Source: Whalleya microplaca (lineage: Eukaryota; Ascomycota; Sordariomycetes; Xylariales; Xylariaceae). From it: 64,000 nt of DNA. A program made the translations under genes and the position numbers. The stretch spans positions 310,001-374,000 of the forward strand of contig MU385740.1 of assembly GCA_022497155.1 (NCBI GenBank), written 5' to 3'. Shown piece by piece: positions 12,390 through 54,956 of the stretch. The notes beneath the pieces were generated by a model. It was not told the DNA's origin and ran no database searches. It saw only the letters and a list, made by a program, of their open reading frames with translations. Within the stretch, counting starts at the first letter, position 1. Every line of letters starts with the position of its first letter.

Positions 12390-15300
12390 ATGACGAGGGA
12401 TGACGGTCGCATCAGCTCCGTCGCGAGTTCAAGCAGTGGACGGTCCAATGTCACGGTGAAGCCGCCCGTCCCCAGTGTTCCCAGTCGCTCGGCTTCCGTC
12501 AACGCTTCCACCACGCGAGCTGCCCCGAGACCCATCAAGACCGGTGAAAATGGAAGGCTCAGGTATGTTCGAAAATGTCACGTTTGCCCGCTTAGGTGTA
12601 TCTGGACTATGGTTTATATACTATGGTTTATATACTATGGTCTGTGGTCTATGATCTATGATCTATGATCTAGGTGGTCGGTGCATCATCTTCCATCCGA
12701 AACTCCATGTGTGTCTGCTGTTAGGTAGTTGGGGCAGATCGCATTACGGAGTGTATAGGTCATGGATGCGAACTGTCAAGGCGTGTCAAGGCGTCTTGCC
12801 ACTACTCCTCCAGTCTGAAGTCTGAAGTCTGAAGTCTGAAGTCCGACTGTCAAGTCTGAAGAACTGTTTGTTGGCAGCTTCAAAAATCTATTACCTATTC
12901 CTCATACCCTTTTACCTGTCTCGTCTCGTCTCGTCTCGTCTCCCCTCGCCTTGTCTTATGAGTTGTTACTGTTTATATAGAGTTTCTTTAAACTGACGCC
13001 AGTCGGCGTTTCTGCGCCGTTGTATAGATCCTTCAAAGAAGAGTCCCTGCCATCGGCAGCCAGCCATCGTATCGCTTTATCGCCAACCTCCCCTGCCTCG
13101 AGCAGCCCGCTCCTCGATAGCCGTCGCATGAGTGATCTTACCAACTACCGACGTGACCTTGCCGTCCTCGAACCGTCCGGTGGCCGCCTCCCGCAAATCC
13201 AGCGAGACCCTCCGGCGAACAGTCCGAACTCGACCCAGAACATAGCGCCCTGGATGTCTCCCAACGGTGTTGCGAACGCTAATAATAATGCCTCGCCGAC
13301 CGCCTTTGCGACGAGCTTCTACAACGATTCGAGCGACAATGTGTCGACGGCGTCCCAATTATCGCCTGCTTTCCGAATAGGTGCCTCGCGACCTGCGCAG
13401 GCCTCCAGCAGCGACTCGCCGGATGCGGCTTATTTCAACGATGACAGGCGGCCGTCGGTGGCCAGTGTGACGACGGCTAGCAGCCAAGGCTCTAAAAACA
13501 GTGGTAGCAGAGGTGGGCTCAAGAAATTACAGGGGTTCTTCGGGGAAGATTACCCAGGTCGCGATGGATCCGACACGAGCTTGCCTCCACCACCCCAAAC
13601 CCAAGGGAAAGAACAGCGTTCATATTCGTTCAACCGGGCGCGTCGGGGCCGGAACGACTCGAACGCCACCGACCATACGAGAGACGTGTCGCCATCCTCC
13701 TCTCGCCCACGAACCCCGGTGCCCTCGAGTGACGTAGTGCCCTTCTTGTACCAGGAAGCTAATGATATTGCTAAATACGGAGAAGCACCAGTTCGCGATA
13801 TGCTCACTGGCCCGGACAAAGAGCGCTACGCGCAGGAAAATTTCGAAAAGCTGCCCCCGAAGACCTCGTCCTCTAACCGCTCCGGTCATGCCATCGTCCA
13901 TTTACCGAGCCATCATCATCACCGTCACCACCGGAGCAACGACGATCCTAACACGCTGCGGCCTGTAGCCAGTCTCGACGATACTGTTGGGAACGTGTAC
14001 AATACCAAGGAAAGGGGAGGGTCTGCCGTGACCATGCCGCGATCGCGCGCCCAGAGTCCGACGCCGAGCAGCAATAGCAATAATAGTAGGCTTGCATCTG
14101 TTGATGGCCAGACGTCGCCTGGAGCACACGGTAAACGCGGCCTCTTCGGTCGCTTACGACGGCACAAGCATAAAGACGACAATCAATCCAATCGTGTTCC
14201 AGGGACGCCTAGCTCTACCCGCTCGCTCGCACCATCGCTATCACGTCAAGATCTATCGTCGCGGGGGAACTCATCGCCCTACTACGATAAGCCCCTGCCC
14301 AGTATAGACCATGGCGATACTCCCATCCGTCCGACCAATTCTCGCCAGGCGACCTTCAACAACAAGTTCCCTTTCGCCAAGATAGGCCGTCCCCATAAGC
14401 TTTACGATGATCCCGACGAGCACATCGGCCCTACCGATAGGAACGACAATGGCAATGTGTTCCATCTCGACACCAACCTCAACGACATGGAAGGCATCCT
14501 CGCGCAACCGCTGCCGTTGACGCCTATGGAGCCTACGATGTTCCAAGTTGTGGAGCACGAAGTTGTCCCCGAGCCCGTGCAGGCTAAAGGAGGCGGGGCG
14601 TGGAATGCACCTGACAGCTGGGCTGTCCGTCGTAACGCCGAAGAGAGAGAAGCCCACGTACCCGAGGTCGACGATGTCGGAACACCACCCCGACCCGAAG
14701 AGAAGATGGCACCCCATTGCATACGGGTATTCCGATCAGATGGCACTTTTGTCACTGTCCAGATGCCCTTGAACTCAACGGTCACGGATGTTATGCAACA
14801 GGTCGTTAAGAAGACCTTTACTACTGAAGGCCTTGAGAATTACCACATCATCCTAAGAAAGCATGCCTTATCCCGAGTTTTAGCGGCCCCCGAAAGACCG
14901 CTCCTAATTCAGAAGCGATTATTACAACAGGTTGGATACGAGGAGAGAGACCGCCTAGAGGATATAGGCAGAGAGGACAACAGCTATCTATGCCGTTTTG
15001 TGTTCCTATCGGCAAGGGACAGCGACTACACCGCCGCCCCACACGATCTTGGACTCAGTGGTAGAGCTGCGAAGTTCAATCATGTCGACCTTACGGGACG
15101 AAATCTGATTACCATTCCCATCACGCTATACTCGAAGACGGCCGATATTATCTCTCTGAATCTCTCTCGAAACCTATCCCTCGATCTTCCACGAGACTTC
15201 GTGCAGGCGTGCCCTCAGCTGCGTGATATCAAATATGCCAACAATGAGGCGCGGAAACTTCCTATCAGCATTGGGAGAGCAGTCAAGCTGACATATCTGG

Positions 15301-18300
15301 ACGTGTCGAACAACCGTTTGGATGAGCTCGAACATGCCGACCTCAGCCGCTTAACCGGCTTGTTGAAGCTGAGCTTGGCCAACAACCGCTTGACCCATGT
15401 TCCTCAAGACTTTGGTGCATTCAGGGCGCTCCGCTCACTCAATCTGTCTTCGAACTTCCTGGACAAGTTTCCGGCATTTTTATGTAGGCTTGGTGGCCTT
15501 GTTGACATCGACGTCAGTTTCAACTCGATTGGTAGCCTGCCTGAGGAGATTGGAAAGTTGAGAAGCCTGGAGAAGTTTGTCATGACGAACAACCGTCTAG
15601 GAGGTTCGTTGCCGTCAACGTTCAGTCAATTGGTGAACCTCCGCGAGTTAGATCTGAAGTACAACGCGCTCACCGCGATCGATGTTATTTCGGAGCTTCC
15701 CAAGCTGGAGATCTTGTCTGCTGACCACAACATGGTCTCCCAATTCATTGGCAGTTTTGAACGAGTACGCAGTTTGAAACTGAATTCGAATCCCATCACC
15801 AAATTCGAAATCGTAGGACCTGTACCTACTTTGAAGATGCTCAATTTGTCTAGTGCTCAGCTTGCCAGCATCGACGGCTCGTTCAACAACATGATCAACC
15901 TAGAGAGGCTCGTGTTGGACCGCAACTATTTTGTATCGCTCCCCAACACCATTGGCAATCTGAGAAGGCTGGAGCATTTCAGCATAGCTCACAACTCGGT
16001 TGGAGAGCTACCTTCGGAGATAGGCTGTCTGAATGAATTGAAGGTACTGGACGTCAGAGGGAACAACATTAGGAAGTTGCCGATGGAACTATGGTGGGCG
16101 AACAGACTGGAAACGCTCAACGCCTCTTCAAATGTGCTCGACAATTTCCCAAAGCCTGCCTCTCGACCGCCTCAAGTACCCGGAGAATCGTCAGGCTCAA
16201 CTGCCGGCACCATTAGCAGACCGAGTGCTGGCCTGTTGTCTCACGCTTCTAGTTCCGAAGACCTTCTACCCGACGGATCGCGACGGCCTAGCCAAGCCTC
16301 TAGTACGCTACTCAGTGTTGGGCCTTCTCCAGTTCCGTCGGGTCCCGACCGCAAGAGTTCGGTCGTGTCAGTTTATGGAAAGGGTGGACGTAAGACGTCA
16401 GTCGTTTCCAGAAGCACGACGGCCAGCAGTGTCAACGTCAATGTCAACGGGAATATGACCCCCGCAGCGACAGCAACGTCGAGGAAGGACTCTGGGATTT
16501 CCAGCCGTCTGACGAATACCTTTGCCGGCTCCCTGAGGCATTTATACCTTGCAGACAATCAGCTCGACGACGATGTGTTCGAACAGATAACGCTCTTATC
16601 CGAATTGCGTACCCTGAATCTATCGTACAACGATCTCAGCGACATGCCACAGCGCTGTATCAAGAGCTGGCCTCAGCTTGTAGAGCTTTATTTGTCAGGC
16701 AATGATCTAACGAGCTTGCCAGTTGATGACCTGGAGGAGTATAGCTTGCTTCAGGTGCTTTACATCAACAACAACAAGTTCACCAACCTGCCGGCAGACA
16801 TCTCGCGGGCCAAGAAGCTGGCCGTTTTGGATTGCGGAAACAACTCGCTCAAATACAATATTGCAAACGTGCCATATGATTGGAACTGGAACTTGAATCC
16901 CAATTTGCGGTTTTTGAATTTGTCTGGAAACAAACGGTTGGAAATCAAGCAAACGAGTCCCGGCGCAGGGGCGCAGAATCGTGACCAGCAATATACTGAT
17001 TTCAGTAGTCTGGTGAACCTCCGTGTGCTCGGATTGATGGATGTCACCCTCACCCAGCCACGCATTCCGGATCAAAGCGAAGATCGCCGTGTCAGAACTT
17101 CAGGTTCATTAGCGGGACATCTACCATACGGCATGGCTGATACAATGGGTAGGAACGAGCACTTGTCAACAATTGATCTAGTCGTTCCAAGGTTCAACTC
17201 CTCGGATTCAGAGACGCTACTAGGCTTGTTTGACGGCCAGGCGCTGTCTAGTGGTGGCTCTAAGATCGCCAAGTACCTTCATGAGAATTTTGGGCACATT
17301 TTCACGATGGAACTGAAGGCCTTGAAAATACGCCAGCAAGAAGGGCCCACTGATGCGCTTAGGCGTGCCTTTCTCGCCCTCAATAAGGACCTCGTCACTG
17401 TAGCCATTGAGCATAGCGAGAAGAGACCGCTAGGATCGCATCGCGGTTCAGCAACTCAGGTAGTCCTAAGCAAGGAAGATCTCAATTCTGGAGGAGTCGC
17501 GACAGTTGCTTATCTCCAAGCCCAAGAGCTATACGTCGCCAACATTGGCGATGCACAAGCTATGCTTATCCAGTCCGACGGCACGCACAAGATCCTTACT
17601 CGGAAGCATGACCCCGCCGAGCCAAATGAGCGTCAACGAATACGAGATGCCGGTGGTTGGGTCTCTCGCCAGGGAAAGCTCAACGATCTGCTTGAAGTCT
17701 CTCGCGCTTTCGGCTATGTTGACTTGATGCCTGCTGTACAAGCAGCCCCCCACGTAACTCAGGTTTCCATCACCCCCCAGGATGAAACATTACTCATTGC
17801 AACAAAAGAATTATGGCAATATCTTACACCTGGCTTGATCGTTGATGTTACTCGGCCAGAACGAGGCGATCTGATGCGTGCTTCTCAGAAGCTCCGAGAC
17901 CTCGCCATGGCCTATGGTTCGACTAACAAGGTCATGATCATGATGATCAGTGTCGCTGATCTGAAGCGGCGCCAGGAGCGATCAGCTCGTCTGCATAGGG
18001 GGCAGAGCATGTCGCTGTATCCCTCCGGTGTACCGGACGAGTTCCAGTATCCGATCAAGCGAGGCAGGAAAGCCAAGGGCGAGGTCCAAGACTCTACGCT
18101 ACACAGGCTCGAGGCCGAGGTCCCTGCTCCCACCGATAAACCCTCTATCGTTTTCACCGACATCAAGAATTCTACCAACCTGTGGGAGATGTATCCGTCG
18201 GCCATGCGATCCGCCATCAAGCTCCACAACGAGGTTATGCGACGGCAACTTCGAAGAATCGGCGGATATGAAGTCAAGACTGAAGGCGATGCCTTTATGG

Positions 18301-19384
18301 TCTCCTTCCCTACCGCAACCGCAGCTCTGTTGTGGTGCTTCGCCGTTCAAACCCAACTGCTCGAGGTGCCTTGGCCTTCGGAAATACTCAACTCAGTCTC
18401 CTGCCAGGAAGTGTACGACAAGGATAACAACCTCATCTTCAGGGGCCTCTCCGTCAGAATGGGTATTCATTATGGTGAGCCAGTTGCCGAGATTGATCCT
18501 GTCACACGCCGCATGGACTATTTCGGTCCTATGGTGAACAAGGCGTCCCGTATCTCCTCGGTCGCCGACGGGGGTCAAATCACCGTCTCCGCCGATTTCA
18601 TCTCGGAGATCCAGCGCTGCCTTGAGACATACCAAGAGAATGAGCGAAATGGGTCTATGGGCTCCGATGATGCCTTCGATGACGACCAGACCTCGCTAGC
18701 GATCAGAAAGGAACTGAAGTCTCTCAGCTCCCAGGGTTTTGAAGTCAAAGAAATGGGCGAGAAGAAACTGAAGGGTTTGGAGAACCCTGAGTATATTTAC
18801 TCGCTCTATCCACACGTTCTTGCCGGCCGTATCGAGCATCACAACAGCCCTGTTACGACGACTGAGGATCCTGTGAAACCTGCCACACTCGAACCAGGCA
18901 GCGAACTCGGGTTCGATCCTGAGATAATCTGGTCTCTGTGGAAAGTTAGTCTACGCCTGGAGATGCTCTGCAGCTCCCTGGAAGAGATGTCCGGCAGGGG
19001 ATTGCAACCGCCTGAGACGGAACTCCTGGAACGTATGAAGCAGCGCGGCGGGGAGGTCACCGAGCGGTTTCTATTCAACTTCATGGAGCACCAAGTGAGC
19101 CGAATAGAGGTAAGTCAAGCCATTTTATATATACTAGGAATACATACATTCGACTTGCACCCTGCTAACGCAACTTACAGACGTGCGTGTCCACCCTCGC
19201 GATGCGACATATCGCCATGGGCGGCGGCGCGATCAATCAGCTGGAAGATCTGCGCACGCCGATGACGGTCGTGCTCGATAACCTCGCGGTCCAGCTCGCC
19301 GAGCTCGAGAAGTACAAGGCCAGGTACGGCGCCCTGGACACGGAATCCGAGGGCGGGGAGTTCAGCGACGCCGAGTTGGAATAG
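12390..19384 (+). CDS. CYR1: Adenylate cyclase, fungal class III Ras-responsive type
   Basis: It converts ATP to cAMP for protein kinase A signalling in growth, conidiation and pathogenic development (cr-1 in Neurospora, MAC1 in Magnaporthe). Exons 12390-12562, 13028-19109 and 19181-19384 join in frame to 2,152 residues. Residues 1 to about 610 are disordered and Ser/Pro-rich. A Ras-association-like domain lies near 618-725 (APHCIRVFRSDGTFVTVQMP). Leucine-rich repeats span roughly 745-1360, interrupted near 1100-1220 by a Ser-rich insert. A PP2C-like domain lies at about 1435-1700. The catalytic domain starts near 1770 with VFTDIKNSTNLWE, carrying the first metal Asp, and includes GGYEVKTEGDAFMVSF with the second. 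The C-terminal tail after the second intron is MRHIAMGGGAINQLEDLRTP. All domains appear intact. Intron 1 (465 nt) is long and repeat-rich. Confidence 0.96.
12640..12942. repeat. Cluster of short tandem repeats inside adenylate cyclase intron 1
   Basis: Intron 1 contains consecutive repeats of different units: TATGATC (about 12648-12672), AGTCTGA (about 12812-12842) and TCGTC (about 12919-12942). Just upstream, a TTTATATACTATGG unit is duplicated at 12612-12640. These probably expand and contract between strains. Confidence 0.75.
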
Positions 19385-43028: not shown

Positions 43029-46000
43029 TCACAAGACCCAGCTCCGTAGCCACCCTTCCACTATTGCTCTATCCAAAACGTGAAGGTTCCCTTTGAAATT
43101 GGTTAAAGCGTTGGCTGTGGCGTACGTGGAGTTTTCTGCACCATCGCTCAGTATATCAAAGAAATCAAGCATAGCCAGTGCCGGCATCGTTGATATAAAT
43201 GCAGCCTTGGTTCCTTGTATGGTACGAAGCTTGTCCACCCATTCCTTCAACGGAACAACCTTGGTGACGTGAAGCAAGTCGCACAAGATGTCAACTACTG
43301 AGTCCCATGGTAGTGGCTCAGGATGAGAAATGTGGTAGAATTGCGCTTCCTGGTGGGCCGGGCGGACAATGAAATCCCGTAACATCTCGGCAGCAGTATC
43401 AACAGCAACCCAATCCACGACCGCGGCATGGGTCGGGATGCATTCTATTGTTTTTGCTGTTCGCACCAGAGCAGAGACCCATGACTGGTCAACCCATTTA
43501 CCTGAGCCAGTACTGGAACCCCCAATTTGACACACACGGACTATAGATACGGGAATGCCCAAAATATTGTTTGCAGCCGTGAGGATGCGCTCAGCAGCAT
43601 GTTTAGACTGCCCGTATCCTATGTTGACTGGAGCCAGAGCATCATTGATTGGAGCTTCAAGCACCCTCATTTTGGTAGCCATCTTGGTGACGGAAGACAT
43701 TGAACTGACGAATACGATGTGTATGTTGTTGGAGCTCGCGAGCTCGACAATGTCCCTTGTTGCGCGTAGAAATGGCTCAAATGAACGAATGGAGAGTCCA
43801 AAATCAAGTCTCCACGCGTTATAGACAATCACGCCAGCTTCGCTGGCGACTTTCTGATACTCATCAGGTGCCATCCCTAGTTTAGGCTTCCCCAGCTCAA
43901 TGGTATAATATTCTAGTTTGTCAGAAGGCAACGCGAGACTACCATCGATCTCATATAGAGCTTTCCCTTGCTTCTCTTGCGCTTGTGTCTTACTAGATCG
44001 ATTGAGACAATATATCCGAGAAACAGTCGGGGTTCTCAACAATTTTGCAACAAGGTGCGAACCTAGATAGCCTGTCGACCCTACCACGGCAATGATAGAA
44101 GGGTTATGTGGTCTTCCAGACTGAACGGTTGAGTTTCTTGGTAAAGAATGCACATAAGTTGCCACAATACCATCTATAGTCTTTGCACGATCGTTATCAG
44201 AATCAGCCCCAGGCACTATGCCCTCGTTGAGAAAAGCGCGAATCAACCGAGATAAATCATTGATAGTCGGATTGTGGAATATAGTCCGGACTGATATCCA
44301 CGCGGCAGACTTCGAACTCTTGTCTTCAAGATTGTGCTTCAAAGAGGATACAATTTCCAATGTCTGGACGGAATCCAAGCCGTGGGCAAAGAAATCTTCA
44401 TTCCCCCCTATCGTAGCACCTGCCGGGAAAGATGCGGATATAATACGACGCAAGAACTCGTCGACCGTAGTTGTTTCATAGTGAGGTTTAAGGGTTGGTT
44501 TTAATTCCACCTCTATGTTGCCGCCTGAATTGGTCGAGTAGAGATTCTCAATTTCGTTGAGGTAAACCTCCTCGGTCATTTTCCGTATTATAGTGCCTTT
44601 GCCAGTCCTCAGGAAAGGCTTGTCGGGATGTGCACAGATGATTTTCTCGTGATATATATGCCCTTGACCGGCTACTAGAGCATTCGACCTCTCGATAAGC
44701 GGCTGGAGCTCTTCTATCAATTTAACTCTCATTTCCTCGTTCAGGGGGTTATGAGGCTCTATAAGCAGGGCCGCTTGTGTTCTACGGTTGCCAACCACCA
44801 AGGCGCCCTTGAGGGAGGGATGAGCTTGAATGTTGATTTCTAAAGGAACGGGGTTGAATTTCTCTCCGTTGGCTAAGACAATGATATCGTCTTTTCGACC
44901 GTAGTACTTGAATAGCTGAGACTTTTCTGGATGGCGCGTAAAGAGATCCTTGGTATAGAACTTGCCAATGCCAGGCAAGTTATGATAGACAGCACTTGTC
45001 TCCTTAGCGCTCTCACCGGCGATGATCACCAATTCATATGTTCCTTCACTAGAATCATGTGGCTGCATTTCGTGCTTGAAAATTGGATTGAACTCATGCC
45101 ATTCCCAATCCTCAAGAGCAGCGGGAACCAACTCAGGCAATGGATACGATTCTGTAGAGCCATATGGTGAGTAGATTTCAACGACCTTCACGAGCTGGTC
45201 ACCGATTACGCGATTGAGAGATGCTCCGCCATACGTGACAAAGTCCAGTGTTTTCAAGAGATCAATCCCTTCAGGATCGTGGAGAATTTGCTCGATCACA
45301 GCGGGTGGTAGAAGCAAGGCCCGTAGCTTCTGATGCATCATCACGCTCTTCAATAATGTTCCATCTGGAATCATATTTGGGGGAGCCATCACAATGGAAG
45401 TGTTGCCAAAAACAGTTGCCACTGTACTTGTCAATGATCTCCTTGCATGTATAGCATTTATGGGCGGCTTACCTGTGTGCATGACAAACCCACCAAGCTG
45501 GAGTAGCAAGTCAGTCCCTAAATAAAATGTTTTACGCGGGCCAAGAATCTCACATGAAAGAAAGGGAAAGCTGTATATACTCTCCCTTCTCCCTGAAAAC
45601 TCCACATTGTCCAGTCTCTCTTCCGGCGGCCTGGTACACTAGGCAAGTTGTGCTCGTTATCGAGTACGGAAAACGAGCCATGTGTCATTATGACTGGTTT
45701 TGGGAGCCCTGTCTACTATTAGCATGAGATCAAGACCCTGTTGCAAGACTCACCGGTGGACCCTGATGAATGAAGCACAACTGCAGGCTCATTCTTAGCT
45801 TCGTTGTAGGTTTTTTCGTAGGGATAATGCTTCGGGACACTACGCATCATATCGTCGAATGATGGGACCATCTCGAGTCGAATCCTTGGCTCCAGGCCCT
45901 GTACTGGTTTCACCAGAGGTCGAACTTCTGCAGCAAACAGCAACTTTGTGCTCTCTGTCTGCTTCATCAAGGAGACATTGGTAGGCGGTGGGTTACGTGG

Positions 46001-46371
46001 TGACGGAAGTAGTAACTATATGCCTTTCAGCTCAGATCTCTTTCGAACTCCAAGAGCACCTGCTGAGAGCAAATTACCTTATATCCACATTTCACAGCCG
46101 CTTGAAAAATAAGAGGCCCTCTCAGGTCAGCTATTCCTATGTAACTAATAGTTTCAAAGCGTTGACTCTTTCCAAATCGATCCTCAATCCACTGGGCCAT
46201 GAAATTAACACATCGCGCCGCGTCCGCGACGGTGATATCGACGAATCCTTGCTCTACATCAGAAGACTTGGGAATGGCAGCAAACAGTCTACTAGGGTTC
46301 TCTTTTGCTAGCTCATCAAGGACCGAAGGCATCAGCCTTCGTCCATAGGTGGGCCTGTCGTTCGAGCTCAT
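43029..46371 (-). CDS. NRPS-like adenylation-thiolation-reductase enzyme (A-T-R)
   Basis: Such enzymes adenylate a carboxylic acid, load it on a phosphopantetheine arm and release it by NAD(P)H reduction as aldehyde or alcohol. Exons: 46078-46371, 45754-46015, 45554-45708, then 43029-45497, which itself probably holds a 51-nt in-frame intron (45422-45472). The product is about 1,042 residues. The adenylation domain has SSGSTGLPKP near 181-190, YGSTES near 331 and GRKDDIIVLANGEKF. The carrier domain has GLDSVQTLE near 591, with the attachment serine present. The reductase domain has VVGSTGYLGSHLV near 691, the SSM strand and a YGQSK active-site motif near 847. There is no condensation domain, so it makes no peptide bond. 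All motifs look intact. Substrate is not predictable by eye. It lies on the same strand as the kinase and repeat-protein genes. Confidence 0.9.
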
Positions 46372-47622
46372 GGTCAGGCTTGTATAGTATGGTAGAAACG
46401 AATATTACCAGGCAGAACAACATGGAAGTGCTTTTGAAATGGGAGAACTCTCATTAAAAAGATTGGGCACATGTAAGACTTAAGAGGTAGCAGGGGTGCG
46501 TGGTCCAGGGCTGGGGTTAGGGAGATCTTGGGCATGTTGAAAGCAGGTGCCGAAGTGGCATCCAATGCGACACACTACCACATCTACGCGACTAGCTAGC
46601 GCTCCTACAGAAAATGCGATACGTAGTACAAGGGGAGTCAGCTGGATAGGACATTGAGCTGATTCAGCTGATGATTTAGTCTTATCTACCCAAGGCGGTA
46701 AGGCCCCCCTTAGCATCGCGTATAATAATGAGTATGTAGGTATCTAAATGTAAAAGGGATAAGAAAGAACTTCCTGGTACTCTAGTAGACAGGCGATCTA
46801 GGTTTATCATACTTAGATACTACCGTACTCTAGACCTCTATAACGAGGAAGGTATGTTGATTTCATACTTCCAATACCTAAAGGAGGACCGCAAGTGACA
46901 CGTAATTCTAATATACTTCCGTAAAACAAACGGCTTGGATTTTCTTTAAGCATAGTCAACTGGAATAAACCTGTCTAGGATGTACTGCACTTCCGATGGA
47001 CGTGTGAATACTTAATGCCGTACCAATAATCTATTAAATCTCTACTGTCAATCCAAATATACGGATGTATATGCTAGACTATTATTATTCAGTTCTGCAA
47101 ATCAGTTCTGCTGGTTTTCTGTGAATGGGGTGACACCCTTTGCCAGTTCCGTGAACTGTTCACATTATCCATGTAACTCTTCTTGGCTAGTTGTATTAGC
47201 TTCCGAGTTTCGTTCATCAGAGCCGATTCTCGTAGGCTCTTACCTATCGCATCAGATTTCTCATCCTGACAACCCACTATATCGGCCGCAAGTAGTTGCT
47301 TTGATGTTACGTAACTCTGAAATGTATATGTATGACCTGGATACTGAAAAAAATATATCATGACCCTCTGCTAGCCCGTATTGGCAATGTCGGGATGAGC
47401 TTAAGCTTCTGCAGGCTATCTTCAAGATGCACTGTTTCAATGAGTCTCCGTCTCCAAACGTGGACATCCCCGCCGCCCCGTGCGCTCAAAGTCAATCCTT
47501 TGATGTAAAGCTTGAAGAGAATATTGACCATGAGGCGCGAACGCCAGCAGCAAGCAAGCCGGATGGCTGTATAACAGACTGGACGATAAATGAAGCTTTA
47601 TACTTAGAGGGGTAGAGCTAGA
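46372..47622. other. 1.25-kb region upstream of the A-T-R gene
   Basis: This contains the promoter of the reductase gene and the 3' flank of the kinase gene. A minus-strand frame at 47089-47361 has a protein-like stretch (SLRESALMNETRKLIQLAKK), and a plus-strand frame runs 47427-47615 (MHCFNESPSPNVDIPAAP). Neither has a domain or splice context I can defend. Confidence 0.4.
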
Positions 47623-49042
47623 CTAGAATCCCAAACGTTCAAGCAACTGAACAAGCTGCTTCTCATTGTCTTCCTTACATTCCATGATCACCTTCTCAGA
47701 CTGCATCCGTAGAATGTCAGAATTGCTGACTCTCCAGGGTAAGATAGTGCGAAGAATCGAATCAACATCCGCCACCTTGTCAATGCCTTCTATCGTCGCC
47801 GGCCTCTTCACATCCTGTTTCTCCAGCTCATCCTCCCAAGCTTTCGCGATTTCCCAGTTGACTCCATCCTCAATCGATTGCGGGAGGGGTGACGGAAACC
47901 CGTGCAGTTTAGCTTTCCTCAGTGCTGCTTGCTCGCCTGCTTCATCGCCCGACCAACCGCGAAACTGACCACCAGCACCATCAAAAGAACGAAGGAATTC
48001 GTAGGAAGGGTGCATAATACAGGCGAAGTCATAATCAATCAATGCAGTGATACGGTGGGTCGAAGCATCGAATAAAAGATTATTAGTGGCTGCATGGTAA
48101 TTACAGTTAGCTCGGCAATAGGATTAAAGAATTAATAATGAAAGGAGAACTTGCTGAAGTCAGCATGTATAATAGATTTATCTTGTGCTGTTTTCAGTGT
48201 TTCAAATTGACTTGGGACACCACGTTCAACAAAAGCGTCCAAACGGTCTCTAATACCGTTGGCATGCCATCCTTGAATGTAAGGGTTTGCCTCCGCTCTC
48301 TGGAGTGCTACTCCCAATCGACCTTTGAAGGAGGATTCGTATGATGGCCAGGGCCCAGCTCCAACGCTGGTCATAGCCGCACTAACAACACGGCCATTCT
48401 CGTCAAACGTCACACCTCCAAGCCCGGTTATGCTTTCCGGGAGCTGGTAGTCTTGTAAAGCTTTGAGCAGCTTGGCCATTTGTGAAAGGATTAGTTTCTT
48501 CTGCTGAAGATCCATAGATGCAAATGATTCATCTACAGATTCACCGGGCATCAGCTCTTGAATAATCCAACCCTGAGAAGACTCGGTAGCAGCACTTCCC
48601 CAGGCATACACGGAGGGGACCACTGATGGCTGAAAGCCTCTAAGTGCGGCAGCTGCGAGATTGATCATCGCTACTTCATTTTCGACCCGGGTTTCAGGGC
48701 TCATCCCCTCAGCGTCGGGATTGGTGAGGCGCAATATAAATTGCTTAGTGCCATCAGGAATCGGGTCGCAGCCAGGCTGCCGGGCTTCATTTTCCGTTGA
48801 GTGGTCCGAAGTGATGGGTAAGGGCAGTGTGATGTTATAGACAAAGTTGTTGTATTTGAAGGGGCATTCGGGGTCGTATTGAATAGGGACGATTTTAGCA
48901 TCCGCCTAACGTGCGCATACATTTGGCGGTTAGCGCCATAGCAACTTGTCTACAATAAGCTTACCTCAAGATTGAATTGCTTATGCAGCAGGCGCTGAAC
49001 GAAGTCCAGTCGAGCTTGGTAGTTGGCGTGATTGTGGGTCAT
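47623..49042 (-). CDS. APH-family phosphotransferase (aminoglycoside-kinase-like fold)
   Basis: Members phosphorylate small molecules; fungal members often lie beside secondary-metabolism genes, though most have unknown substrates. Exons 48965-49042, 48155-48905 and 47623-48089 join to 431 residues. The second intron (48090-48154) appears to be GC-AG: GCAAGT donor, GCTAACT branch, TGCAG acceptor. Splicing it restores the catalytic loop. The joined protein has HADFTTNNLLFD (H273-x-D275-x4-N280), followed by ALIDYDFA, which supplies the metal-binding Asp of the DFG-equivalent. Earlier, WIIQELMPGESVDE fits the hinge region. The start MTHNHANYQARLDFVQRLL gives the usual N-terminal helix. Catalytic residues are present, so it is probably active. 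It lies 325 bp downstream of the repeat-precursor gene on the same strand. Confidence 0.88.
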
Positions 49043-49367
49043 GGTGATCAGCTCTGAACTATAAGCTAGAGTGTAAGAATGAAGGACACTTGACAAACAC
49101 AAGGCGACTGTGCCCAATATGTACCTGTGCCGTGTTCTTCTATCCAGGCTGCCAGGGAGCGGTCAGTGGTCTGACAGGTGTGAGGTGGTCTAAGCGTCCT
49201 GGCACAAAACAAAGCAGATCCAGCTAGCTTTCCCCTCACCTCATCACCATTAATACACATATTGCATTCAGATGACTCCAGCTATCTTGCACGCCTTCTT
49301 CCATCCGGTTTACAAGTTTGTTTGCCCCAACTGGTCCGCCTTCGGCTTTCAGCATCGCAAATGACCC

Positions 49368-50003
49368 TCAGGCACCGTCAGCCTTGAAGATGCGCTTGAT
49401 GAGACTGAGCCCTGAATGGAGCCAGGAGCTTGAGTCGTGCATGATCATCAAGTGAGCGTGACAGCCTTTGTCAAGCTCATCGACATCCAAATATACTGGA
49501 CCGGTCGGTAGCTTAGACTGTGCAAGTAACTCTAACAAGCAGAGGCCAATAGATTGCATACCCAATGGTCAGAGAAGCCCAATTTTTGGCTGCCATGAGG
49601 AGCCACAGCTGAAGCTGCTCCCTTATATTTAGTCACCCACTTTCCCCGGGTGCTGGTTTCGTCGACCGTCGGCCCTTGTGGTGGAACGTCTTCTTTATCG
49701 TTGGAGTATGAACTCACCCACTGGCCTCTGGTGCTGGTTCCGTCAACCGTTGGCCCTTGTGGAACATCATCTCTGTCGTTGGAGTACGAAGACACCCACT
49801 GGCCTCTGGTGCTGGTTCCATCCACAGTTGGATGATGATCGCCTTCGGGGGCATGGACATGGCGTTCCTTAATAATCCGAATGTCAGTCGGTTCAAGCTA
49901 GACGCGTGAATCATTGGAAACTCACCACTGTATTGAGCGAGGGGGCTATCGCCATGGATGCCGCGCTGGCACATAAGGCCGTGAAAGGAACCGCTGTCTT
50001 CAT
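49368..50003 (-). CDS. Secreted tandem-repeat protein, candidate RiPP precursor
   Basis: Exons 49926-50003, 49562-49867 and 49368-49517 join in phase 0 to 177 residues. Exon 1 is a textbook signal peptide, MKTAVPFTALCASAASMAIA, with probable cleavage after the last Ala. Exon 2 encodes three consecutive repeats: residues 39-64, 65-91 and 92-118, each starting P-T-V-D-[GE]-T-S-T-R-G-[QK]-W-V. All three keep Trp and Tyr in W-V-x-x-Y (W50/Y54, W76/Y80, W103/Y107). Exon 3 adds a 49-residue non-repeat tail with LPTGPVYLDVDELD and one dibasic Lys-Arg near the end. The gene is head to head with a UstYa-family gene. Known dikaritin precursors combine a signal peptide and tandem cores, but separate them with Kex2 Lys-Arg sites; here none lies between repeats. 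A repeat-containing secreted effector is the main alternative. Exon 3 is the least certain part. Confidence 0.7.
49592..49831 (-). repeat. Three 78-81 bp coding repeats in the candidate precursor
   Basis: Units at 49754-49831, 49673-49753 and 49592-49672 encode 26, 27 and 27 residues. Copies 1 and 2 encode nearly the same peptide but differ at synonymous sites, including a serine switched between TCT and AGT. The repeats are therefore not a very recent duplication, and the amino-acid pattern appears to be maintained. Confidence 0.85.
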
Positions 50004-50485
50004 TCTGAGAGGAAACCTTCAGTTGGACGATATCTTGCAATTGGTACAGGCGCAGGACTACAACTATGCAGGCCAAACCACTTTGCAACTGGCGCAGTCA
50101 AGCATCATATATCCACAGGGAAAACTAAAGGACTAGGGCTGAAGAGGAATCGGCGTTGAAGAGATATTACCAACATCAGTATGGGATGCTTACCAAGTAA
50201 ATACCCTGCATTGTCACATATTCTAAAATCCAATTCCGTAGCTTCTTCTTATCTTTGCAAGGTGCCCAGGACAAAACTCGAATTTTGGTGAAGTAATAGA
50301 AACATATGCTGTCGCACTGTGTAGCTAAGTCATGCTCTTGTGCTGTATCAGGCTGCCGTGGTATGCCCGAGCTCTACTTCTCAGATGACCTCCATCCATT
50401 GTCTATCCATTCCCTCCAGGAAATTTCCAGTTACTTATCATTCATCTTTCCTCATCTTTACTTGATTTGGCTATAAGCACCCACA
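50004..50485. promoter_or_regulatory. Divergent promoter between candidate precursor and UstYa gene
   Basis: These 482 bp separate the two start codons, suggesting joint control. A CCAAT box lies at 50230-50234 (plus strand) and a TATAAG sequence at about 50472, 14 bp before the UstYa ATG. No binding site for the nearby Zn(II)2Cys6 protein (inverted or direct CGG triplets) was clearly recognised. Confidence 0.5.
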
Positions 50486-51510
50486 ATGGCAAACAACAAC
50501 GGCATGCAATATATTCGCCTCAGGAGCGTCGGTTCGAATACTACTACTCCAATGGTTCATGGGACTTCCCATACCGAAGAGCTTACAAACAAAGGCAACA
50601 GATCTACTTTCAGTCTCAAGCGTTTTCGTTTGAAGAAGTTTGTATTTCTTTTCTCTCTGTTGCTAAACTGCTTCGCTATATGGAACCTGTTGTTCTCAAG
50701 AACTCCACTAGACCGAATCCTTACTTATTGTGAGTCTGCAACACTATACGTAAGTAAGCATACTGTTAACTGGCCCTGATGATAAGAGCGCCTGCGCTGC
50801 CAGCCATCGAGAACGAGAAAGTGGTTTTCTCAAGTGCATTTGGTATTGAGCGATCATCGTTCCAAGGAGAACCGTCAGAAGAAAATGATAAACTATGGGC
50901 TGGCCTCTATGACTGTAATCTGACTCTTTCATTGTGCGCCATCTATCTCTAACATTTCTCAAGTTGGCATCACAAGGATCAGCGCAGATGAAGCGAGACC
51001 TATGGATAATAAAAGGCTCCCTATTCCCGATAAAGAAGGCGGGTACGTAGTCCAGCTAGCGGTGTTTCATCAACTTCATTGTTTGGTAAGTCTTATGTTC
51101 GTGTGACAAGTACTGCGCTGACCAAGACCGCAGAACATGATTCGAAAGGCCATATATGGCGGAGCTGACATGTCGAACATGGATGATGCAATGGGAATAG
51201 AGCATCTGGATCATTGCGTTGATATGCTTCGTCAAAGTATAATGGTAAGCTGTTACCAGCGAAGTGGTACTAGTTGCAAAACTGATGCTGGTGGCTTTGA
51301 CAGTGCACTAGCGACATAACTCCTACTACGTTCGCTCGTACGTCACTCGACAGCAGCATGAAAGTCGTCGCAGAGGTTGTCCATACCTGCCGGAGCTTCT
51401 CGAAAATTCAACAATGGGCATGGAATAGACGTATAGACAAGGCTATTGACAAGGATAAAGTCGTCACCGACGATCCATTAGGTTGGGGAACATGCACATA
51501 TTCGCCATAG
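50486..51510 (+). CDS. UstYa-family (DUF3328) oxidase-like membrane protein
   Basis: UstYa-family proteins act in fungal RiPP pathways (ustiloxin, phomopsin, asperipin), where they are implicated in oxidative macrocyclisation of the core peptide; others occur in non-RiPP clusters. Five exons, 50486-50729, 50789-50914, 50964-51085, 51134-51244 and 51304-51510, give 269 residues. A basic cytosolic N-terminus leads to a single membrane helix at about 52-70 (FVFLFSLLLNCFAIWNLLF). The lumenal domain has both hallmark motifs: HQLHC (H159-C163) and EHLDHCVDMLRQSIMC (187-202). TYSP is at the C-terminus. The fungal pattern of a short Tyr-Ser-Pro segment just after the helix is also present. Every key residue of the two motifs is intact, so the protein is probably functional. 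It is divergent from the candidate precursor. Confidence 0.9.
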
Positions 51511-54305: not shown

Positions 54306-54956
54306 TCAACTAGGCCGTCTGGTCTGCTTAAAGATGTCGATGAGGTTATCCATCCTCGCCTCGTACTTATCTCTCTGCTGTCTGAGCTCACTCTCAAACT
54401 TGGCTTTTAGAGACCGTAGCTCCTTGGCGTGCTTCTCATGCTCTGTCTTGAGCACGTCCTGGAACTCCTCCTCCATGGTGCGCATTGTCTCCGTGAGTTC
54501 CCGGACTTGAACCTTCATCTCCTTCAAGTTCGTGATGACGGCAGCGCCGTCGTCTTTCTCGTCGCTGATCTCCTTCTGGCTGACTGCAAATACAGCAGGG
54601 TTGGTAGCGGGAGGAGAAATAGTGGGCGAAGCAGTAGCCTCAGGCCTCGGGGCTGAAGCTGGGGCTGAGGCTGAAAGTGGCATGGTCTTAGCATGCCAAT
54701 GCAGTTGAGCTCTTGCTGAGCGAGTCAGATGGCGTGACGAACGCTCTGGCCGTTGAAATGTTGCGGTCGTCTTGGATGCTGGACGACATTGGTAGTTTGA
54801 TCTCAGGCAATAATCACACTCGCCGTCTTGGCGGTTGTAGCGGCACTTCAAATGGCATTAGTTGACAATTCATTGCGACAGCTGACTGGTGACTTTGTAG
54901 GTGTTACATACCCTTTGATGGTGCTTCCGGCAGGCATAGCAGCGCGAAGATCCCAT
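54306..54956 (-). CDS. Short Zn(II)2Cys6 protein with a C-terminal coiled coil
   Basis: Exons 54912-54956 and 54306-54845 join in phase 0 across a 66-nt intron, giving 194 residues. The binuclear zinc cluster is complete only after splicing: C6-x2-C9-x6-C16-x8-C25-x2-C28-x6-C35 (CYACRKHHQRCRYNRQ..., then CDYCLRSNYQC). A Ser/Pro/Ala-rich linker follows, then a long charged coiled coil from about residue 100 to the end (EMKVQVRELTETMRTMEEEF, HEKHAKELRSLKAKFESEL), suited to dimerisation. There is no fungal-TF middle-homology domain. The protein could be a local regulator of the adjoining metabolic genes, a truncated transcription factor, or an unrelated small DNA-binding protein. Location 2.8 kb beyond the UstYa gene is suggestive only. 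Confidence 0.8.

Follow-up and report, generated by a model that had tools for sequence, protein, structure and literature searches.

An apparently secreted repeat protein and a UstYa-family (DUF3328) protein are encoded head to head in the genome of the xylariaceous fungus Whalleya microplaca, and with a probability of roughly 0.7 we read the two, from their sequences, as substrate and modifying enzyme of a RiPP pathway in which a W-V-[ST]-x-Y motif would be oxidised and the repeats cut out of the precursor. The pair lies in a stretch of 64,000 nucleotides (assembly GCA_022497155.1, contig MU385740.1, positions 310,001 to 374,000), here called the window, whose own numbering is used below. 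Since such pairs occur again in fungi that are only distantly related, this one probably makes an undescribed modified peptide. The locus consists of the following features.

49368-50003, minus strand: precursor gene, three exons, 175 amino acids, supported by homologues
50003-49926, minus strand: precursor exon 1, coding for the first 26 residues with the apparent signal peptide, its start aligned in homologues
49925-49868, minus strand: precursor intron 1, 58 bp, GTGAGT...TTAAG, predicted
49867-49562, minus strand: precursor exon 2, all three repeats, with unit starts at 49831, 49753 and 49672 (DNA repeat family D1)
49561-49512, minus strand: precursor intron 2, 50 bp, predicted, its acceptor picked via homologues in which HW is followed by LPxGP
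49511-49368, minus strand: precursor exon 3, conserved C-terminal segment LPTGP...KRIF, a candidate recognition (follower) sequence
50004-50485, no strand: shared intergenic region, 482 bp, a possible bidirectional promoter judging only from the head-to-head layout
50486-51510, plus strand: UstYa/DUF3328 gene, five exons, 269 amino acids, a single apparent hydrophobic helix near the N-terminus, and the motifs HxxHC and EHxDHC
50486-50729, 50789-50914, 50964-51085, 51134-51244 and 51304-51510, plus strand: the UstYa exons, predicted

An earlier note on this DNA had proposed a spliced product of 177 residues with three tandem repeats of 26-27 residues, its start codon separated by 482 bp from that of a divergent UstYa gene. 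The splicing (as predicted), the head-to-head spacing and the repeats (beginning at residues 39, 65 and 92, with spacings of 26 and 27) all stand, but the size does not, as the homologues place the acceptor of intron 2 six bases downstream of the one that the 177-residue form would use. In 12 of the 13 homologues aligned over this junction [LI]PxGP directly follows HW or YW, and the 175-residue product is therefore favoured; the exception, P0007, has three extra residues, and the alignment was made without P0093, whose segment departs at that point. Nine homologue fragments (P0008-P0010, P0085-P0089 and P0092) run from HW or YW into a V and then into unrelated residues to their ends, and the unspliced frame of the window precursor shows the same read-on; such a tail would be expected from reading on past a conserved GT donor. 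The signal peptide is apparent, as judged by eye from the sequence, and the C-terminal segment forms a helix of low confidence in a structure model. Repeats 1 and 2 are identical at 19 of 21 residues, and over these 21 codons 35% of the synonymous sites and 8% of the non-synonymous ones differ, while repeat 3 shares 12 of 21 residues with either, with 78% synonymous and 34% non-synonymous differences from repeat 1 and 53% and 33% from repeat 2. This excess of synonymous over non-synonymous differences, together with 24 homologues, argues that the frame is not a chance one. Each of the three units contains a Tyr. The sole dibasic pair of the precursor is KR at residues 167-168, C-terminal of the repeats, and a scan of the 175-residue product found no dibasic Kex2 site between the repeats, only single basic residues around the units.

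The UstYa-family assignment with intact HxxHC and EHxDHC motifs, also made in the earlier note, was borne out: the motifs read HQLHC and EHLDHC in the translation, and the spliced protein of 269 residues matches PF11807 with an E-value of 3e-50 (171.6 bits, cut-off 25). The H and C columns of the two HxxHC motifs are invariant in the 34 relatives that were aligned, of 69 found. P0015 from Nemania abortiva, 74% identical to the window protein, has a modelled helix at residues 44-70 (mean pLDDT 93-96 over 51-70), which a hydrophobic N-terminal stretch of the window protein resembles by eye. In the same model the two HxxHC motifs sit on helices 157-175 and 187-204, a predicted placement in line with the published binuclear copper enzyme CctR (PMC12435403). 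Searches by sequence and by Foldseek found no solved structure related to the UstYa protein.

Searching with the repeat product, as the earlier note had proposed, returned 24 homologues (14 by single-sequence search and 10 more by profile search), so the protein is a conserved one; 12 of the 24 come from named species. Most carry one to four copies of P-T-V-D-x-T-S-T-R-x-x-W-V-[ST]-x-Y and keep the C-terminal segment where they are complete, with the consensus HWLPxGPxYLDLDxLxxGYHxHLxxMxxSxSWxxSxxxxxKRF or close to it. Of 25 sequences, the window's included, 24 have one or more W-[VM]-x-x-[YH] units, the exception being P0007 from an Annulohypoxylon. Because W, the next V/M and Y were part of the pattern used to find units, their conservation among the 51 units is not independent evidence; upstream of the Trp these units mostly read T-V-D at -10 to -8, with Thr at -4 in 49 of 51 and a basic residue at -3 in 50 of 51 (48 R, 2 K). 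When every unit of the window precursor and of those from the 12 named species is counted, 24 of 32 retain both W and Y. A KK lies some residues past a unit in P0006, P0011, P0013, P0084, P0090 and P0093 among the 24 homologues, and between units there is an RR in P0001 and a KR in P0085; P0086 and P0087 have one KK or RK. P0090, P0091 and P0093 (Ilyonectria, Fusarium and Durotheca) look by eye like a divergent subgroup with TVDxxNTRSxWVTSY.

From these sequences we infer the modification of the precursor, its site, the processing and the product. The precursor would enter the secretory pathway via its apparent signal peptide, and a membrane-anchored UstYa protein with its dicopper site in the lumen would oxidise the W-V-[ST]-x-Y motif in every repeat, the likeliest outcome being a bond between Trp or Tyr and a neighbouring side chain or their hydroxylation. 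The likely recognition sequence for UstYa is the C-terminal segment, which is the most plausible candidate because it is kept even in the members with a single unit (P0012, P0013 and P0084). The modified repeats would then be cut out, probably behind the near-invariant Arg that precedes the Trp by three positions and at basic residues shortly past the Tyr; cuts at single basic residues are proposed because no dibasic site lies between the repeats, and the KK, RR or KR near units of some homologues suggest that the cut site in the window may be the same one in a weaker sequence. A rather improbable alternative keeps the two genes as precursor and modifier and takes the product to be the whole secreted protein, a chain strung with oxidised WVxxY motifs that stays uncut. 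Such a chain would suit a precursor whose only dibasic pair stands outside the repeats, a family in which unit number varies while the C-terminal segment stays, and the homologues P0012, P0013 and P0084 with one unit, whereas the KK a few residues after the Tyr in P0006, P0011, P0013 and P0084 suggests a cut, and the almost always basic residue at -3 from the Trp also speaks against an uncut chain.

Linkage in other fungi argues that the two genes belong together. The earlier note had named homologues consistently without a UstYa neighbour as an outcome that would count against it; this outcome did not arise, as in four other species the two appear to be linked. Of the 69 relatives found with the window UstYa, four appear to share a contig with a precursor homologue, as read from contigs of equal size and from gene numbers that are near or consecutive in three of the four cases:

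Nemania abortiva, 58,764-bp contig: precursor P0002 and UstYa P0015 (genes F5Y10DRAFT_257089 and F5Y10DRAFT_257091)
Xylaria telfairii, 135,266-bp contig: precursor P0012 and UstYa P0024 (genes F4803DRAFT_531546 and F4803DRAFT_531544)
Podospora australis, 10,200-bp contig: precursor P0011 and UstYa P0038 (genes QBC35DRAFT_396303 and QBC35DRAFT_457468)
Drepanopeziza brunnea, 918,735-bp contig: precursor P0084 and UstYa P0030 (genes LZ554_009586 and LZ554_009585, consecutive)

The linked pairs span three orders and two classes, namely Xylariales and Sordariales of the Sordariomycetes and Helotiales of the Leotiomycetes. In a tree of 26 rows, made of the window protein and the best 25 of the 69 relatives, the five linked UstYa proteins fall within one set of 18 rows (support 99/98); they are not a clade of their own, and 21 of the 26 members have no precursor seen beside them. 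Among the 12 named species in which a precursor homologue occurs, 4 have a linked UstYa of the same set. For the other eight (Hypoxylon argillaceum, Nemania serpens, Annulohypoxylon nitens, Annulohypoxylon sp. FPYF3050, Anthostomella pinea, Ilyonectria robusta, Fusarium piperis and Durotheca rogersii) no partner was seen among the 69 relatives, a list with one name per 90% cluster that is bounded by sensitivity and gene annotation, and these species are evidence against an obligate pair. Identities of the precursor C-terminal segments co-vary with those of the UstYa partners over the five pairs (r 0.60, with 3 of 120 permutations as high), a weak result as the partner models P0030 and P0038 are short. 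All 11 units of the linked precursors have both W and Y intact, against 13 of 21 units in named species where no partner was seen, a contrast (Fisher p 0.03) that is only suggestive because units within one protein are not independent. Adding by hand the units of Podospora anserina (one of three intact) gives 14 of 24 intact among precursors without a partner seen, and in H. argillaceum four of four units are intact despite no partner being seen.

Other genes in the window are as follows.

43029-46404, minus strand: A-T-R synthetase-like gene, situated 3 kb past the precursor, with matches to the AMP-binding C-terminal, carrier and NAD_binding_4 reductase domains; the AMP-binding domain itself scored below its cut-off
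47623-49050, minus strand: gene for an APH-type phosphotransferase (PF01636 in two frames), lying downstream of the precursor and with approximate outer bounds
54306-54956, minus strand: small gene, possible regulator, with Zn2Cys6-like cysteines by eye and a coiled-coil-like stretch, about 2.8 kb from the UstYa gene; a domain search covering its second exon gave no Zn2Cys6 match
12981-19265, plus strand: ordinary fungal adenylate cyclase, a large frame in which LRR, PP2C and adenylate/guanylate cyclase domains were matched

The first of these bears on a second alternative to which we give little credence, namely that the repeat protein is the precursor of a linear secreted signalling peptide or effector and the UstYa protein acts elsewhere, for example on an A-T-R product. 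Cyclochlorotine is a non-ribosomal peptide. It too is modified by UstYa proteins (PMC12435403), and an A-T-R type enzyme within the window, together with the eight species without a partner seen, would fit a UstYa of this kind, while the phosphotransferase-like gene separates the A-T-R gene from the pair, and the linkage to UstYa proteins of the same set recurs in four other species of three orders.

The genome as a whole offers a background for the locus. At least 34 UstYa exon matches occur in it, and of 19 other 9.8-kb stretches around such matches, 7 contain a tandem-repeat open frame with dibasic sites in its unit (repeat identity 0.7 or more; these are open frames, not verified genes). 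Among the resulting eight UstYa-linked repeat loci only that of the window has no dibasic site in the unit. Tyrosinase matches number 18 in the genome; one adjoins one of the seven repeat loci (C4, 541270-541981), and none lies on the window's contig, C31, where weak matches split by introns could escape. Ordinary ustiloxin-type loci thus seem to be plentiful in this genome, and the window locus would depart from them in its processing sites. On C27, the frame 286351-287451 (L024) has well over ten near-identical 14-residue repeats, mostly KR-bounded (KRSDADAATKYIAD), with a UstYa match about 1.5 kb away, and looks like an ordinary ustiloxin-type precursor. The stretch 532500-542300 of C4 (L027) combines KR-bounded VDFxxVGDEYKR repeats with two UstYa matches and the tyrosinase match just given, and looks like a ustiloxin/phomopsin-type cluster. 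At L017, L021, L026, L029 and L033, repeat frames with dibasic sites adjoin UstYa matches and the units differ, that of L029 containing Trp (PPLWDGGVDFEEE). Although so many UstYa matches and repeat frames could bring a repeat frame and an unrelated UstYa gene side by side by accident, we regard chance neighbours as very improbable given the conserved homologues, the recurrent linkage in four other species, and one low-complexity match only when the same scan was run on five control segments of the window outside the locus.

With substrate and modifying enzyme as our preferred reading, a wider and considerably more speculative proposal can be made, which we hold to be doubtful as a whole: a RiPP family in which a C-terminal follower would guide UstYa to a Trp cross-link in W-V-[ST]-x-Y, with release independent of dibasic sites and precursors that Kex2-based mining misses, with members in Xylariales, Sordariales and Helotiales and divergent ones in Hypocreales. 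In the literature searched no description of the WVxxY precursor family as a RiPP came up. Published precursor searches have used similarity to known precursors or Kex2-bounded repeats, and the window precursor offers neither. A survey of Hypoxylaceae relied on the former and disclaims judging real RiPP diversity (PMC8403587). The definition of KEX2-processed repeat proteins (KEPs) asks for at least three repeats, each no shorter than 8 residues and set between KR, KK, RK or RR, and a kingdom-wide survey also demanded a signal peptide (PMC7329392); the window precursor shares the tandem repeats and the (apparent) signal peptide, and KEP-style surveys would miss it because it has no dibasic pairs between its repeats. 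A search for UstYa genes would pick up the locus without pointing to its substrate. If the reading is right, dicopper UstYa enzymes would gain a new type of substrate whose core contains Trp as well as Tyr, the conserved C-terminal segment would open substrate recognition to study, and Podospora anserina would serve as a tractable model, its homologue being already known as transcribed.

That homologue is predicted CDS 3 (chromosome 1, 5,382,147) of a re-annotation, to which P0006 is nearly identical by eye; RNA-seq revealed it as a transcribed region where no gene had been annotated, FGENESH predicted its three exons, and its table entry reads 'signal peptide, transmembrane domain', with no function or neighbour given there (PMC9801653). 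Its discovery in this way suggests why such genes often lack annotation. By eye it shares with the window precursor a similar N-terminus, three units and the same C-terminal segment, and it has the same number of predicted exons (PMC9801653, Table 3); it differs in keeping both W and Y in only one of its three units, and with three KK it might pass the KEP definition. On the enzyme side CctR, ApnU and AprY belong to the same DUF3328 family as the window UstYa. CctR is a dicopper, O2-dependent enzyme with a double HxxHC motif, which the window protein shares, and with a single membrane helix and a lumenal catalytic part, which the window protein probably shares (PMC12435403). These three act on known substrates, whereas the substrate of the window UstYa is proposed from linkage. 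Cross-links made by UstYa proteins join Tyr with Ile or other residues, or Phe with Leu in victorin (PMC7329392, PMC9233826); a Trp in the core would be less usual.

Among the dikaritins (ustiloxin, phomopsin, asperipin-2a), a secreted repeat precursor (at the window locus an apparently secreted one) likewise adjoins a UstYa/DUF3328 gene and each repeat has a Tyr, to which the window precursor adds a Trp; asperipin-2a likewise has a single UstYa (PMC7329392). The earlier note had likened the pairing to that of dikaritins and proposed an undescribed cyclised peptide as its product. The recurrent UstYa link upholds the pairing, but the case is weaker than the note implied, as Kex2 sites between repeats (a defining trait of ustiloxin-type precursors), a tyrosinase match on the contig and a partner in eight of the 12 named species were not seen. 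Dikaritin units are typically 8, 13 or 14 residues long versus 26-27 here, and tyrosinase is required for ustiloxins and phomopsins (PMC7329392), unlike the window contig with its lack of a tyrosinase match. The window precursor further differs from dikaritins in its W-V-x-x-Y motif and dibasic-free spacing, and may do so in its conserved C-terminal segment. On its sequence the window locus is placed as a variant of UstYa-type RiPP loci rather than as a dikaritin in the strict sense.
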